From Thiotrichales bacterium (GTDB lineage Bacteria > Pseudomonadota > Gammaproteobacteria > SZUA-229), in contig CP070838.1 in NCBI GenBank assembly GCA_020341835.1, positions 2,742,161 through 2,787,638 of the forward strand: a stretch of DNA of 45,478 bases, written 5' to 3'. The position numbers and the translations under genes are program-made. The notes under the pieces were generated by a model. It saw nothing but the letters and a program-made list of their open reading frames with translations, had not been told where the DNA came from and made no database searches. Position 1 is the stretch's first letter. Each line of letters opens with the position of its first letter. Of the stretch, positions 4,157-10,024 are shown in pieces.

Positions 4157-5124
4157 CTGGAAAAATGCTCATAGCCGCGATTATCAAGCAGGTAGCGTGC
4201 ACCCGACTGATCAACGATATTGAGCGAGTCGTGCGCTTCGATGACACCGATGTGTGTCAACGGCAACTCGAGTCTACTGGCCACGGCCATAAGCTTGTCC
4301 TCGTTTTCGGGCGTCACCACCAGGCACAGCTCGTAATCATCACCGCCTGACAGCACCATATTCCAGTCAACTGTATCCCTGCCCGCTGAATATTCAACCA
4401 GCTGACGGGATAGCGGCAACCGGTCTATATCTAATGTAGCACCGCAATGACTGGCCTCAAGAATATGCCCCAGGTCCGCGGCCAGGCCATCGGATATGTC
4501 GATCGCACATTTGCAGAAGCCGGACACCCGCATGCCCAGTTCCACCCGGGGTTCGGGCCGGTTGAGGCGATCGACCAGCCATGCCTGGTCGTGCCCGTCC
4601 GCCCCGCCCTGCTCCAGTATTTTCAATCCCGCGGCGGCATCGCCCAGCGTCCCGGAGACGTAGATAGCATCGCCGGCACGTGCAGCATCGCGGCGCATTA
4701 TTTTGTCCGGATCAACAAAACCGATAGCCTGCAGGGTGATGCTCATGGGACCCTGCGTAGTATCGCCACCGACAAGCTGCAAATGATACTGTTTTGCCAG
4801 GTGTCGGAAGCTTTCCGAAAAAGACTCGAGCCAGCCAGTATCTTCACCGGGCAGCGTCAGCGCGAGCGTCAACCAGGCGGGCTCGGCACCCATCGCGGCC
4901 AGGTCGCTCAGGTTGACCGCGATCGCCTTGCAGGCGATGTCTGCGGCTGACGTCTCGAGCGGAAAATGCACGCCAGCGACCAGCGTATCCGTGGTTATCG
5001 CCAGCTGCCTGCCTTCGGGCACGGCAACGACGGCACAATCGTCACCCACACCGAGGATGACTTCGTTCGGACTGGACGGTGATACAAAGTATTTTTTTAT
5101 GAGATTGAATTCACCGGACGCCAT
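4153..5124 (-). CDS. thiL: Thiamine-monophosphate kinase
   Basis: ThiL phosphorylates thiamine monophosphate to the active cofactor thiamine diphosphate using ATP. The 323-residue product matches the family length. It contains GEFNLIKKYF at the start, GVGDDCAVV near 26-34, TTDTLVAGVHF, and LVGGDTTQG in the central part, which are the metal- and nucleotide-binding blocks of the AIR-synthase-like fold. The ATG shares one base with the nusB stop (TAATG) and the stop overlaps the pgpA start, so the three genes are tightly coupled. Confidence 0.97.
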   Translation of the reverse strand: MASGEFNLIKKYFVSPSSPNEVILGVGDDCAVVAVPEGRQLAITTDTLVAGVHFPLETSAADIACKAIAVNLSDLAAMGAEPAWLTLALTLPGEDTGWLESFSESFRHLAKQYHLQLVGGDTTQGPMSITLQAIGFVDPDKIMRRDAARAGDAIYVSGTLGDAAAGLKILEQGGADGHDQAWLVDRLNRPEPRVELGMRVSGFCKCAIDISDGLAADLGHILEASHCGATLDIDRLPLSRQLVEYSAGRDTVDWNMVLSGGDDYELCLVVTPENEDKLMAVASRLELPLTHIGVIEAHDSLNIVDQSGARYLLDNRGYEHFSR

Positions 5125-5567
5125 TACACTGACACTGTCTCATGCGTCCTGGTATCGCGTGCAACCTTGTCCAGTACCGCGTTGACGAATGTGTGGCTCT
5201 TCTCGGCACAAAATTTCTTCGTCAGCACGACGGCTTCGTTAAGCACAACACGATACGGTACGTCGAGTCGTTTGATGAATTCGTAGGTTGCAATACGAAG
5301 AATCGCACGCTCGACCGGGTCGACTGAATCGATACTGCGTGACATGTGTTTTTCCAGCTGTACGTCGATTGGCGCCAGCTCGTTCATCACACCCAGCAGC
5401 AGTTCCGAGAAATAGGCCTGGTCGACATTTTTCATGTCATTCTCTTCGATAAACTGCTGTTCGATACCGTCGATATCATCTGCAGTCATCTGCCACTGGT
5501 ACAGGGCCTGCATTGCAAGGCGCCTTGCCTTGCCGCGCGCTTTGGCAAGTCCCGTATTATCAGACAT
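5124..5567 (-). CDS. nusB: Transcription antitermination protein NusB
   Basis: NusB binds boxA RNA with NusE (S10) in the rRNA antitermination complex. The 147-residue, mainly helical product opens with KARGKARRLAMQALYQWQM, a typical NusB N-terminus with the Arg-rich RNA-binding segment. It continues with PIDVQLEKHMSRSIDSVDPVERAILRIATYE in two adjacent helices and VVLNEAVVLTKKF, all characteristic. It lies 10 bp downstream of ribH and overlaps thiL by one base, the standard ribH-nusB-thiL order. Confidence 0.97.
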   Translation of the reverse strand: MSDNTGLAKARGKARRLAMQALYQWQMTADDIDGIEQQFIEENDMKNVDQAYFSELLLGVMNELAPIDVQLEKHMSRSIDSVDPVERAILRIATYEFIKRLDVPYRVVLNEAVVLTKKFCAEKSHTFVNAVLDKVARDTRTHETVSV

Positions 5568-5577
5568 GGGAAATAAA

Positions 5578-6051
5578 TCAGTCCAGTTGGGTCATCAGAT
5601 TGACCATTTCGATTGCACCGGCGGCAGCTTCCGCACCCTTGTTGCCGGCTTTTGTACCGGCGCGTTCGATCGCCTGCTCGATCGAGTCGGTCGTCAGGAT
5701 ACCGTTAATCACCGGAATACCGTGATCGAGCGCAATCGCCGAAAGACCCTTGGCCGATTCGTTGGCGACGATGTCGAAGTGAGGTGTGGCGCCGCGGATG
5801 ACCGCGCCAAGCGCGATGACTGCATTGTAGTTGCCGCTCTGGGCCAGCCCCTGCACAACGACGGGAATCTCAAAAGCACCGGGGGTCTTGACCACGGTGA
5901 TCGCCGCTTCGTCAACCCCGTGACGCTTCAGTGTATCGATAGCGCCTGCCAGCAGGCTTTCAACAATAAAGCCGTTAAAGCGTGCGCAAACGATCGCGAA
6001 GCGCCCCTGCGAATACTGCAAACTGCCTTCTACTGAATTTATCTGACTCAT
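5578..6051 (-). CDS. ribH: 6,7-dimethyl-8-ribityllumazine synthase
   Basis: RibH condenses 5-amino-6-ribitylamino-uracil with 3,4-dihydroxy-2-butanone 4-phosphate to make lumazine, the penultimate step of riboflavin synthesis. The 157-residue product has [16 protein letters not shown], the substrate-binding PGAFEIPVV, and [14 protein letters not shown] containing the catalytic His. It is separated from ribBX by 3 bp and from nusB by 10 bp, so it is co-transcribed with both. Confidence 0.97.
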
Positions 6052-6054
6052 ATC

Positions 6055-7158
6055 TCATTGATCTCCACTTACGTATTCAACAATCTCCAGACCGAACCCT
6101 GCAAGACCATGATAGACCTTGGGTGCAGACATCAGGCGCATTTTGTGGACACCAAGATCCATCAGGATCTGCGCGCCGACACCATCTTTACGCAGGTCGG
6201 GTTTCTGTTCCACCGCTTCGCTGTCAGAGGTGGGGTGGCGCAACATCCAGTTGATGATCGCATTCTCCTCTTCCGGCTGGCGAATGATCACCACGACGCC
6301 ACTGCCCTCGGACCGGGCCACCTGTTCGAGCGCAGACCGCAGCGGCCAGCCGCTGGCATGTGTCGAACCGAGCACATCGATCAGGGTATTCTCGACGTGC
6401 ACCCTGACCAGAACCGGCTCGGTTTCGTCAATGCTGCCGTGTACCAGTGCAAAATGCAGACCGCCATCCAGGCTGTTCTGGTAAGCATGCAGGCGAAACT
6501 TGCCGAACTCGGATACGAAGTCACTTTCAGCAACACGTTCGACGGTCTTCTCGTTCTTGATCTTGTAACTGATCAGGTCTTCGATGGTGCCGATCTTCAG
6601 TTTGTGCTCCCTGGCAAAATTCTCCAGATCCGGACGCCTCGCCATGGTGCCGTCTTCGTTGAGGATTTCGACGATAACCGCACTGGGCTCATGACCGGCC
6701 AGTCGCGCCAGATCGCAGCCGGCTTCGGTATGTCCGGCCCGGACCAGCACACCTCCGGGCTGCGCCATCAACGGAAAAATATGTCCGGGCTGAACGATAT
6801 CATTCGGGCTGGCATCCTCCTTCACCGCCGCCCGGATGGTCGTGGCGCGGTCCGCTGCGGAAATGCCTGTTGTCACGCCTTCTGCAGCCTCGATCGAAAC
6901 CGTAAAATTGGTGCCGTGCAGGTCGCCGGTTGAACCGACCATGAGCGGCAGCTTCAATTGCTGGCAACGCTCCTGCGTCAGCGTCAGGCAAATGAGTCCG
7001 CGGCCATAACGCGCCATAAAATTGATATCATCCGCGTTGGCCAGGCTCGCGGCCATGACCAGATCACCCTCATTCTCGCGGTCTTCATCGTCCATGATGA
7101 TGACCATTTTTCCCTGGCGAAAATCTTCGATGATCTCTTCTATGCTGTTCAACTTCAT
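6055..7158 (-). CDS. ribBX: RibBX: DHBP synthase fused to a degenerate GTP cyclohydrolase II-like domain
   Basis: The N-terminal 200 residues form 3,4-dihydroxy-2-butanone 4-phosphate synthase (RibB), which converts ribulose 5-phosphate to the four-carbon riboflavin precursor. Motifs are DDEDRENEGDL at about 23-33 and RAGHTEAGCDLARLAG. The remaining part resembles GTP cyclohydrolase II, keeping KDGVGAQILMDLGV. However, the region that should hold the three zinc-binding Cys of RibA reads VENTLIDVLGSTHASGWPL with no Cys. Catalytic cyclohydrolase activity is therefore unlikely, matching the RibBX hybrids known from gammaproteobacteria; a true RibA should be encoded elsewhere. I choose the start at 7158 (MKLNSIEEII), preceded by AGGATG. 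An ATG at 7176, immediately after the ribE stop, would add six residues. Confidence 0.93.
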   Translation of the reverse strand: MKLNSIEEIIEDFRQGKMVIIMDDEDRENEGDLVMAASLANADDINFMARYGRGLICLTLTQERCQQLKLPLMVGSTGDLHGTNFTVSIEAAEGVTTGISAADRATTIRAAVKEDASPNDIVQPGHIFPLMAQPGGVLVRAGHTEAGCDLARLAGHEPSAVIVEILNEDGTMARRPDLENFAREHKLKIGTIEDLISYKIKNEKTVERVAESDFVSEFGKFRLHAYQNSLDGGLHFALVHGSIDETEPVLVRVHVENTLIDVLGSTHASGWPLRSALEQVARSEGSGVVVIIRQPEEENAIINWMLRHPTSDSEAVEQKPDLRKDGVGAQILMDLGVHKMRLMSAPKVYHGLAGFGLEIVEYVSGDQ

Positions 7159-7176
7159 TACATATTCATCCTGCAT

Positions 7177-7830
7177 CTATTTCACGAAACCCGCGCGTGT
7201 TAACAGGTCCATGTTGATCCTGCCTTTGTCACTGTCATCCATGTTCAGTAGCAGCGCTTCAAGATAACGTGCTACCAGATCAACCTCAAGATTGACTCTG
7301 GTTCCTTTGGAATAATGCTGTATCACCGTTCGTTCCTGCGTATGCGGCACAATATTCAGTCCGACTATACGATCGTCGACTGAATTGACGGTCAGGCTGG
7401 TACCATCGATACAGATCGATCCTTTAACGGCGATGTATTTTTTCAGCTCGGCTGGCACTTCAATTTCCAGCCGGATCGAACGCGCATCGCCCGACTTGCT
7501 GACAACCGTTCCGAGACCGTCGACATGACCGCTGACGAGGTGACCACCCATACGTGTTGTCGGCAACATGGCTTTTTCAAGGTTGACGGAACTGCCGGCA
7601 CTCAGGGCCTTGAGCGATGTCAACGATATAGTTTCATTGGAAACATCGGCCGAAAACGAAGTCGAGTCGAATGCGATAACGGTAAGACATACGCCGTTGA
7701 CGGCGATACTGTCGCCGATCTGTACATCGCTCATATCAAGATCACCGCTGTCGATCACGAATCGCAGATCACCGCCAACCGGCTCCAGCCTTTTAACCGA
7801 GCCAAGTGCTTCAATTATTCCTGTAAACAT
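7177..7830 (-). CDS. ribE: Riboflavin synthase, alpha subunit
   Basis: The enzyme dismutates two lumazine molecules to riboflavin plus the pyrimidine precursor. The 217-residue product has the two tandem lumazine-binding domains: MFTGIIEALGSVKRLEP starts the first, and MGGHLVSGHVDGLGTV starts the second at about residue 95. DSIAVNGVCLTV and GSICIDGTSLTVNSV are the paired equivalent motifs. Length and order are normal. The gene is sometimes called ribC. The stop lies directly before the alternative ribBX start and the gene begins 8 bp after the HslV-like gene. Confidence 0.96.
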   Translation of the reverse strand: MFTGIIEALGSVKRLEPVGGDLRFVIDSGDLDMSDVQIGDSIAVNGVCLTVIAFDSTSFSADVSNETISLTSLKALSAGSSVNLEKAMLPTTRMGGHLVSGHVDGLGTVVSKSGDARSIRLEIEVPAELKKYIAVKGSICIDGTSLTVNSVDDRIVGLNIVPHTQERTVIQHYSKGTRVNLEVDLVARYLEALLLNMDDSDKGRINMDLLTRAGFVK

Positions 7831-7838
7831 AGCCGGTA

Positions 7839-8429
7839 TTAACCTGTTACTGATTTCAGCTTCTGCAAGTCAACCGTGTAACGACTCATTGGCATTGCTG
7901 AAGCATTGTTGAACTCTGCACCTGCCATGACACCTGCGCTGGCGATTTCTTCCGCCGATTCCAGCATGTCATAAACAGCAAACATCGCGCCCAGTGCATA
8001 TTCGGAACCCGATCCAATGGCCCAGAATTTCCTGTATTCGCAAACCTCACGCAGCGAATGCACACCGAAAATACCATGCGGGCAGGCGATCAATGCATCG
8101 ATCTGTGTTGATTCATAAGGATCGTCATCCTCGTCCTTGGTGTTGAGGAAATACCGGTCTTTCAACACCGGGTGAAGCTGGCGAAAAGTTTCGAACACGG
8201 CAAGGCGCGATGTGAAGTCCACTTTGATCTCATCCTGATTAAGGATACTTTCCATAACCAGCTGGTGAGCCGCACTGCCAACAATCCCCAGATAACTGTC
8301 ATCATGAACAAGTATCTTGTCATGACCGGCTTCATAATCCGCACCCATGCGCAAATCACCAAAACTGGTCAGGCTGTCTGCCGCGATACATACCTTACCG
8401 GCTTTTTTTGCTACTACAACAGTCGACAT
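7839..8429 (-). CDS. HslV-like Ntn-hydrolase (proteasome-type) protein, substrate unknown
   Basis: The 196-residue product begins MSTVVVAKKAGKVCIAADSL and continues SFGDLRMGADYEAGHDKIL. This aligns with the start of HslV (MTTIV, then GHVVIAGDGQ and the KVRRL segment), where the residue after Met becomes the catalytic N-terminal Thr. Here that position is Ser2, with Thr at 3. FWAIGSGSEYALGA matches the conserved IGSGGPYA block of HslV. It is therefore a proteasome beta-fold protein outside true HslV; no hslU partner is next to it. Some homologues are, I believe, misnamed as MFS transporters; no membrane segments are visible. It sits between ribD and riboflavin synthase, with a strong CAGGAGT ribosome site. 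A peptidase or amidase role is inference. Confidence 0.72.
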   Translation of the reverse strand: MSTVVVAKKAGKVCIAADSLTSFGDLRMGADYEAGHDKILVHDDSYLGIVGSAAHQLVMESILNQDEIKVDFTSRLAVFETFRQLHPVLKDRYFLNTKDEDDDPYESTQIDALIACPHGIFGVHSLREVCEYRKFWAIGSGSEYALGAMFAVYDMLESAEEIASAGVMAGAEFNNASAMPMSRYTVDLQKLKSVTG

Positions 8430-8450
8430 CGTTACTCCTGAATCTCGTTG

Positions 8451-9545
8451 TTAACTACCGGCAGGTATCGCGGTTATACGCAGGTCACTGCCTATGCTGC
8501 GGATATCCATGATCTCAAGCCGTATCCTGTCAGCCATGTTTTCAAGCCCGGGGATATTAAACAGCCCCCTGGCATCGTTACCCATAATATGCGGCGCCAT
8601 ATAGAGAATTATTTCGTCTACCAGTTCGCGCTGCAGCAACGCACCACACAGTGTCGCACCGGCCTCCACCTGGACCTCGTTTACTTCCTGTTCGGCCAGC
8701 CAGTTCATAACTGCGTTCAGATCGACCCTGCCATCGTCAGCATCAAGCCTGACCACATCACAGCCAAGTGCTGTTTCACGCTGTGCTGCCGTCAGTACCG
8801 TTGTCGATCCTTCCAGTGTCAGCATCTTCGCATTTGCAGGCATTCTCAACTGCGTATCCAGGACCACCCGGTGCGGCTGTCTGACAGCGCCCTCGATGCC
8901 CAGTTGCTCCGCTGTATGGCGGACAGTCAGCGAAGGATCATCGTCAATAACCGTATCGACACCGGTAAGTATTACCGAACTCCTCGCACGCAGACGCTGC
9001 ACATCAGCACGCGCTGCTTCGCCGCTGATCCATTGACTTTCGCCGGACGCCATTGCAGTGCGCCCGTCGAGACTCATCGCCAGCTTGACACGAACGTAAG
9101 GGCGTCTGCATTCCATGCGCTTGATAAAACCGGGATTGATTGCCCTGGCGTCGTGCTCGAGCAAGCCACTGTCTACTTCTATACCCTGCTTGCGCAGACA
9201 TTCGAAACCGCTGCCCGCCACTTCCGGATTCGGATCCTGTAGTGCCGCCACAACACGTGCAACACCGGCATTGACCAGCGCATCGGCACAGGGCGGGGTC
9301 TTGCCATGATGACTGCAGGGCTCCAGTGTGACATAAACCGTCGCACCCGCCGCCTGATCACCCGCCTGTTGCAGCGCCAGTATTTCCGCGTGCGGCTCGC
9401 CGGCGCGCTGGTGCCAGCCTTCACCGACAATCCTGTCGTCCCGGACAATGACACAGCCGACACGCGGGTTCGGATCGGTGGTATATAAACCACGCCCGGC
9501 CAAACGCAAGGCACGCTGCATGTATTCTGTATCGCGCCGGTCCAT
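8451..9545 (-). CDS. ribD: Bifunctional pyrimidine deaminase/reductase RibD
   Basis: RibD deaminates and then reduces the pyrimidine intermediate of riboflavin synthesis. The 364-residue product has an N-terminal cytidine-deaminase-like domain with zinc ligands H52 (in EPHAEI), C77 (in LEPCSHHGKTPPC) and C86, and the catalytic E54. The reductase domain starts near residue 146 with RPYVRVKLAMSLDGRTAM, the DHFR-like NADPH-binding opening. It lies 5 bp after nrdR, a pairing common in proteobacteria. Confidence 0.97.
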   Translation of the reverse strand: MDRRDTEYMQRALRLAGRGLYTTDPNPRVGCVIVRDDRIVGEGWHQRAGEPHAEILALQQAGDQAAGATVYVTLEPCSHHGKTPPCADALVNAGVARVVAALQDPNPEVAGSGFECLRKQGIEVDSGLLEHDARAINPGFIKRMECRRPYVRVKLAMSLDGRTAMASGESQWISGEAARADVQRLRARSSVILTGVDTVIDDDPSLTVRHTAEQLGIEGAVRQPHRVVLDTQLRMPANAKMLTLEGSTTVLTAAQRETALGCDVVRLDADDGRVDLNAVMNWLAEQEVNEVQVEAGATLCGALLQRELVDEIILYMAPHIMGNDARGLFNIPGLENMADRIRLEIMDIRSIGSDLRITAIPAGS

Positions 9546-9550
9546 AGGTT

Positions 9551-10024
9551 CTATTTGATTTTTTTCTTCGGCGCCTTTTGCTCGAGACGTTCAACGGCTT
9601 CGCGAAAAGCGTTGACATCACCAAAATCAAGATAGACCGAGGCAAAGCGGATGTAGGCAACGTGGTCCATCGCGAGCAACTCGTCCATGACCCAGTCGCC
9701 AATTTTTGCAGATTCGACTTCACGTTCGCCGGCCGCCAGCAGGTTATGTTTGATACGATTGATAGCCTCATCAATCTGTTCGATTGGAACCGGACGCTTT
9801 TCCAGTGCTCGCATCACGCCGCCGCGCAGTTTCTCTTCCCTGAAAGGCATGCGGCTGCCGTCATGCTTGACGATGCGGGGCATGTTCAACTCGGCGTTTT
9901 CGTAGGTCGTAAATCGCTCGCCACATTCCAGGCATTCACGTCTTCTGCGCACCTGGTCGCCCTCATTGGAAAGGCGCGAATCGACTACGCGTGTATCGGG
10001 AGCTGAACAGAATGGGCAGTGCAT
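9551..10024 (-). CDS. nrdR: Transcriptional repressor NrdR
   Basis: NrdR represses ribonucleotide reductase genes in response to the ATP/dATP balance. The 157-residue protein has a zinc ribbon made by C3, C6, C31 and C34, with [14 protein letters not shown] typical, followed by an ATP-cone domain containing [19 protein letters not shown]. It is 5 bp upstream of ribD, the usual neighbour. No NrdR-box pair is evident in the short glyA-nrdR gap; its targets lie elsewhere. Confidence 0.97.

Follow-up and report, generated by a model that had tools for sequence, protein, structure and literature searches.

What is a proteasome-type hydrolase doing among the genes of riboflavin synthesis, and which residue would serve as its nucleophile? 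Both questions are raised by a minus-strand open reading frame (ORF) at positions 7839-8429 of the window, the whole 45,478-nucleotide stretch of DNA analysed here. In the ORF listing of the window it spans 196 codons and encodes 196 amino acids beginning with MSTVVVAKKAGKVCIAADSL. A first-pass annotation, which gave no strand, had described an HslV-like Ntn hydrolase within a riboflavin cluster, with Ser2 followed by Thr3 at its N terminus. Both residues are present, and Pfam matches confirm ribD and ribE as the flanking genes, as well as ribBA, ribH, nusB, thiL and pgpA, in the order glyA-nrdR-ribD-ORF-ribE-ribBA-ribH-nusB-thiL-pgpA, with 21 nt between ribD and the ORF and 8 nt between the ORF and ribE. 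The features that the argument draws on are as follows.

7839-8429, minus strand: Ntn hydrolase of the BPH family with Ser-1 (ORF residue 2), 196 amino acids (ORF call, phmmer to 5ovu/5ovs, model and fold search)
8427-8429, minus strand: start codon ATG, presumed to be cleaved off to expose Ser-1 (by inference from mass spectrometry of Thr-1 BPH, passages of PMC5777263)
8424-8426, minus strand: codon of Ser2, the mature Ser-1 and presumed nucleophile (Ser in all 71 rib-linked rows; aligned to BPH chain residue 1)
8435-8439, minus strand: AGGAG, presumed ribosome-binding site for BPH translation, 5 nt 5' of the ATG (sequence reading)
8109-8138, minus strand: acidic pore-loop segment, residues 98-107, KDEDDDPYES (alignment)
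8451-9545, minus strand: ribD (deaminase/reductase), upstream neighbour of BPH (Pfam PF00383 and PF01872)
7177-7830, minus strand: ribE, riboflavin synthase, downstream neighbour of BPH (Pfam PF00677)
6055-7176, minus strand: ribBA (Pfam PF00926 and PF00925)
5578-6051, minus strand: ribH, lumazine synthase (Pfam PF00885)
9551-10024, minus strand: nrdR, conserved gene upstream (Pfam PF22811 and PF03477)

The ORF is a genuine gene under constraint. A search of genome contigs recovered 43 relatives, and the three of ten close pairs with computable dS gave dN/dS values of 0.017, 0.027 and 0.043, indicative of purifying selection; the other seven pairs were saturated, and dS was near saturation in two of these three. 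Counts of internal promoters and terminators stood at the shuffled level (3 versus 3.8 and 7 versus 5.7), so we claim neither within the gene run. No riboflavin-related Rfam family, such as the FMN riboswitch, matched the window at its gathering score. The sole Rfam match in the window is a TwoAYGGAY RNA motif (RF01731; 32582-32745, plus strand; 50.6 bits versus a cut-off of 43), a structured RNA for which we know of no role. The same gene run also holds, directly 3' of pgpA, a retropepsin-like aspartyl protease gene (PF13975/PF13650; 3027-3683, minus strand).

To which family does the protein belong? The ORF is a Ser-1 member of a known family, the Betaproteobacteria proteasome homologue (BPH). 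Searching PDB sequences with phmmer at E ≤ 1 returned BPH only (5ovu, E 2.2e-48; 5ovs/5ovt, E 5.4e-42) over residues 3-190. The Pfam proteasome family gave a weak match of 18.4 bits, under its cut-off of 22.4, and the HslV models remained far below theirs (NF003964, 22.1 bits versus 137; TIGR03692, 21.7 bits versus 157.75). An AlphaFold single-chain model built from 21 sequences reached a pLDDT of 80.3 and a pTM of 0.81; its weaker stretches, near residues 21-30, 91-110 and 171-180, leave the geometry of the pore loop unsure. The proteasome-type Ntn fold, whose absence the first-pass annotation had named as grounds for refutation, is present in this predicted structure: fold comparison of the model ranks BPH best (Z 24.6, 24.6 and 22.8) and HslV second (17.7 or less), and Foldseek places BPH at ranks 1-6. 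Among the matches listed by phmmer against the PDB, by Foldseek and by the fold comparison, no Anbu chain occurred.

With the BPH of Cupriavidus metallidurans (5ovu) and Thiobacillus denitrificans (5ovs/5ovt), the ORF product has in common its whole-length sequence, fold, D17/K37/G50/S139, the acidic pore loop and the lack of a propeptide. It differs in carrying Ser-1 where they carry Thr-1 and in lying in a riboflavin locus rather than beside PDC or argG; moreover, it is known here as a single-chain model, whereas theirs are solved structures. With HslV (ClpQ) it shares the Ntn fold and a two-residue hydroxyl motif at the mature N terminus (...GTTILTV in the host HslV), and HslV likewise has a catalytic Asp and Lys. 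In contrast to HslV, which according to passages of PMC5777263 has a short linker at that position, the ORF product carries the acidic pore loop, and it is adjoined by riboflavin genes instead of HslU in a host that also encodes a true HslV. That host pair lies elsewhere in the genome (one contig, 2.8 Mb), with HslV at C1:1935868-1936380 (278 bits) and HslU directly behind it at C1:1936423-1937739 (710 bits), in keeping with the earlier remark that no HslU partner lies near the ORF. HslV exceeds its cut-off in 41 of the 46 BPH-bearing genomes. Translation of the host HslV apparently begins at a GTG, which leaves a short leader ahead of Thr-Thr; in BPH only Met precedes Ser-1. Another Ser-1 protein of the proteasome type is CodW, the Bacillus subtilis HslV named in the same passages of PMC5777263, which shares the N-terminal Ser nucleophile but belongs to a different family and needs the ATPase CodX.

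Which of the two hydroxyl residues would act? Structural alignment of the model places ORF residue 2 on BPH chain residue 1 (Thr-1), so that Ser2 would become Ser-1 once Met is removed. Across 71 distinct rib-linked rows, Ser2, Thr3, D18, K38 and G51 are each invariant (71/71); this set, which is weighted to the window's family, includes two ribD-BPH loci without ribE (L035, L042) and one whose contig ends shortly after BPH (L038), and was counted after exclusion of identical proteins and the fragments L040, L066 and L135. Because Ser2 and Thr3 are equally invariant, invariance alone cannot choose the nucleophile: the family alignment that had been suggested for deciding between them finds both conserved, and it is the alignment to BPH that favours Ser2. 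Thr3 was considered and ruled out, since the structural alignment puts it on the second chain residue and Ser2 on the first. Codon 2, read in 70 of the 71 rows, is TCC in 32, TCT in 18, TCA in 13 and TCG in 7. An invariant Ser written in four synonymous TCN codons suggests that Ser-1 is kept by selection, as presumed nucleophile, in agreement with the initial proposal.

The remainder of the active site can be mapped in the same manner. Passages of PMC5777263 name Thr-1, Asp-17, Lys-37, Gly-50 and Ser-139 in Td-BPH, whose counterparts in the ORF are Ser2, D18, K38, G51 and S140, and describe Ser-139 as contacting the nucleophile. Of the 71 rib-linked rows, 59 keep Ser at S140 (mature Ser-139) and 12 have Ala. 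The rows with Ala are L038, L048 (from a genus mate of the window genome), L064, L102-L104, L110, L111, L113, L115, L118 and L120. The Ser/Thr distinction, the main point of the first-pass annotation, is not new: in 2017 PMC5777263 already reported, in the passages concerned, Ser-1 in every BPH outside Betaproteobacteria, and the ORF shows the same residue change, likewise outside that group.

The suggestion that the group and its maturation were undescribed is not supported: BPH has solved structures, its Ser-1 form was reported in that 2017 paper, and the maturation of the Thr-1 relatives is covered in the same passages of PMC5777263. These Thr-1 proteins have no propeptide and lose only Met, as seen by mass spectrometry, and they assemble into 14-mers, closed double rings whose sites lie inside. 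Neither Cm- nor Td-BPH acted on peptides or casein, yet they bound epoxomicin/MG132. The suggestion fares better for the substrate, as PMC5777263, in the passages concerned, found none for BPH. In the rows related to the ORF, the loop KDEDDDPYE (K98-E106) is nearly fixed, with K98, D99, E100, D102, D103, P104, Y105 and E106 (eight of nine positions) unchanged in all 21 rows. The rib-linked BPHs L013, L015, L017, L020 and L027 end in roughly ten residues rich in Lys/Arg, a C-terminal tail that may matter in an acidic barrel.

How general is the riboflavin neighbourhood? At the 43 loci on genome contigs, ribD lies upstream in 39, ribE downstream in 38, and both in 36. Two Desulfobacterales loci (L037, L039) have neither flank, and five further loci lack one; for three of the five the contig ends there or close by. 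L035 and L042 have BPH behind ribD, with no ribE found adjoining; the next gene in L035 is, judging from its sequence, presumably ndk-like. BPH is present in 22 of 40 relatives, and at E ≤ 1e-10 the family occurs in 46 of 369 genomes of the class. The order nrdR-ribD-BPH-ribE accounts for 31 of these 46, from 13 families (in one, L104, the place where ribD would lie is beyond the contig end); two more carry BPH beside nrdR without ribD, and 13 carry it elsewhere. That the gene tracks rib genes holds for most BPH genomes without being obligatory; settings apart from the riboflavin locus, of the kind put forward at the outset as a possible refutation, account for 13 of 46. Across 67 loci, between -1 and 256 nt separate the BPH stop from the ribE start, with fewer than 10 nt in 46; this tight spacing supports co-expression of BPH with the riboflavin genes. 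No plasmid copies of BPH were found by tblastn.

Residue and setting go together. All 33 linked copies, which include the broken L135 (its Ser read from the frame) and the two nrdR-only genomes, are Ser-1, and the 13 others comprise seven Ser and six Thr. The association is significant by genome (33/33 versus 7/13, Fisher p 0.0002) and by family (14/14 versus 3/8, Fisher p 0.002), in both cases by a statistic that ignores shared ancestry. In a sample of the phylum, 6 of 299 genomes carry the family at E ≤ 1e-20, and the three new ones are Thr-1 and lie in published settings, two beside pyruvate dehydrogenase and one at argG. From the sequences, we take the neighbours to be a pyruvate dehydrogenase E2 gene in the two former cases and flanking argG and yajQ-like genes in the latter. 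The argG, pyruvate dehydrogenase and hsp33 operons are the three prevailing BPH operon types in passages of PMC5777263, a habitat rather than a defining trait; the window BPH, in its riboflavin locus, lies outside them.

How firm is the link over evolutionary time? In a 63-row tree built without HslV, without six long rows (L131-L134, L136, L137) and after thinning of 21 rows from the window's family, the 52 rib- or nrdR-linked rows are set apart by a single modestly supported branch (86/73, not starred), two Desulfobacterales rows lie next to the linked rows, and Ser and Thr have interchanged at least three times. The root and deep order of an earlier HslV-rooted tree were not used, the untrimmed HslV row forming an extremely long branch. 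A Ser-1 group (L128, L129, L130) clusters with Td-BPH in the tree; its BPH neighbour is, we assume, a glycerophosphodiester phosphodiesterase-like gene, with a presumed UvrD/Rep-like helicase gene nearby.

Several genomes break the link. Five gammaproteobacteria have ribD and ribE without BPH, with about 20-40 nt between the matches in three (L138, L140, L142). In genome G208 (L135, about 5020-5595) BPH is broken, with its start codon lost and two frame breaks, and the ribD and ribE flanks align unbroken; in G068 (L113), from the same genus, the gene is whole. In G280 and G375, BPH stays by nrdR and ribD, ribE and ribBA lie together elsewhere; its second neighbour in both is presumably an ndk-like gene. 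The break and the separation make BPH look dispensable for riboflavin synthesis and able to persist apart from it, and the link is not obligatory. Loss of BPH in close relatives was considered for five family members (G001, G004, G009, G011, G020) and rejected: none of them yields a ribE match either, which makes absence of the locus from the assemblies the most likely cause.

Why, then, would BPH reside here? One answer is a dedicated flavin role, in which BPH cleaves or turns over RibD, RibE, RibBA or apo-flavoproteins and operon expression sets the balance. The recurrence of the operon order in 13 families, with reading frames often overlapping or nearly touching, the gathering of linked rows on one side of the 86/73 (unstarred) branch, and the retention of ribD in L035 and L042 where no ribE adjoins all speak for it. 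We nevertheless regard it as unlikely, given the BPH broken between unbroken neighbours in G208, the copies separated from ribD-ribE-ribBA in G280 and G375, the five gammaproteobacteria that have ribD and ribE without BPH, and the placement of Thr-1 BPH with argG or pyruvate dehydrogenase, both in the phylum sample and in passages of PMC5777263. Equally doubtful is the more specific proposal that the rib-linked Ser-1 clade is a flavin-specialised self-compartmentalising hydrolase, whose Ser-1 and pore loop are tuned to a riboflavin enzyme or flavoprotein as substrate.

Other alternatives concern the activity itself. The Ntn fold also serves amidases, and the first-pass annotation had raised the possibility of an amidase rather than a protease. 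The absence of peptidase activity in the two BPHs tested (passages of PMC5777263) would suit a small-molecule amidase or another non-proteolytic Ntn hydrolase, but the closest structures are closed double rings whose internal sites take the peptide-like epoxomicin (same passages), and a near-invariant acidic pore loop is more in keeping with a gated chamber than with an enzyme for small molecules; no specific support for an amidase emerged, and we consider it very unlikely. A similarly slim chance attaches to an unused active site in a barrel that acts as scaffold or binding protein: Ser-139 is lost in 12 rows, and in the proteasome Ser-1 proved the less efficient nucleophile compared with Thr-1 (work cited in passages of PMC5777263), yet the invariance of Ser2, D18, K38 and G51 and the use of all four TCN codons for Ser2 point the other way. 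Least probable of all is a second HslV that borrows the host HslU. In its favour, HslV comes directly behind BPH among the solved families, and the host genome contains an HslU gene; against this stand the 22 bits scored where HslV models demand 137 and 157.75, the lack of conservation of HslU-interface residues in BPH and the failure to pull down HslU (passages of PMC5777263), and the position of the host HslU gene directly behind the host's own HslV.

We thus favour, as the probable explanation, a self-compartmentalising Ser-1 Ntn protease of the BPH family that is co-expressed with the riboflavin genes, a reading built on the family, predicted fold, presence of catalytic residues, locus and purifying selection established in the present analysis. 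We envision a subunit descended from HslV and working without HslU, in which removal of Met exposes Ser-1, as in its Thr-1 relatives. Ser-1 would then act as N-terminal nucleophile, tuned by Asp-17 and Lys-37 and with the base supplied by its own amino group, while Gly-50 would provide the oxyanion hole. By analogy with the same relatives, the subunits probably form a closed double ring, and the acidic pore loop would admit only a limited range of substrates, either unfolded or compatible with the loop; these, we infer, are cleaved by proteolysis without ATP. Against a protease speak the inertness of the tested BPHs on peptides and casein and the Ala at position 139 in 12 of 71 rib-linked rows. 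Probably, an ancestor of the rib-linked clade settled between ribD and ribE and was inherited there, and BPH would be made from the riboflavin operon for that reason; the link would most likely amount to steady co-expression, any tie to flavin metabolism being accessory at most.

The family and its Ser-1 variant are already known; the conserved riboflavin setting is a useful addition. Our literature searches recognised no paper on BPH in a riboflavin operon, and the word riboflavin has no occurrence in the portions of text covered of PMC5777263 and PMC8665760. As the 2008 paper that named BPH or the supplement of PMC5777263 could list the setting, we do not claim it as unpublished. The riboflavin locus brings the genomic settings to four and goes unmentioned in those portions of the two BPH papers; for the most part, the Ser-1 and Thr-1 forms of BPH occupy different operons. 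For a family that has structures, this setting offers a clue to its job and a list of candidate substrates: RibD, RibE, RibBA, RibH and flavoproteins. Should the tie prove functional, BPH would offer an uncommon instance in which a proteasome-like chamber forms part of a vitamin pathway; otherwise, the result would still be a useful map of the family.
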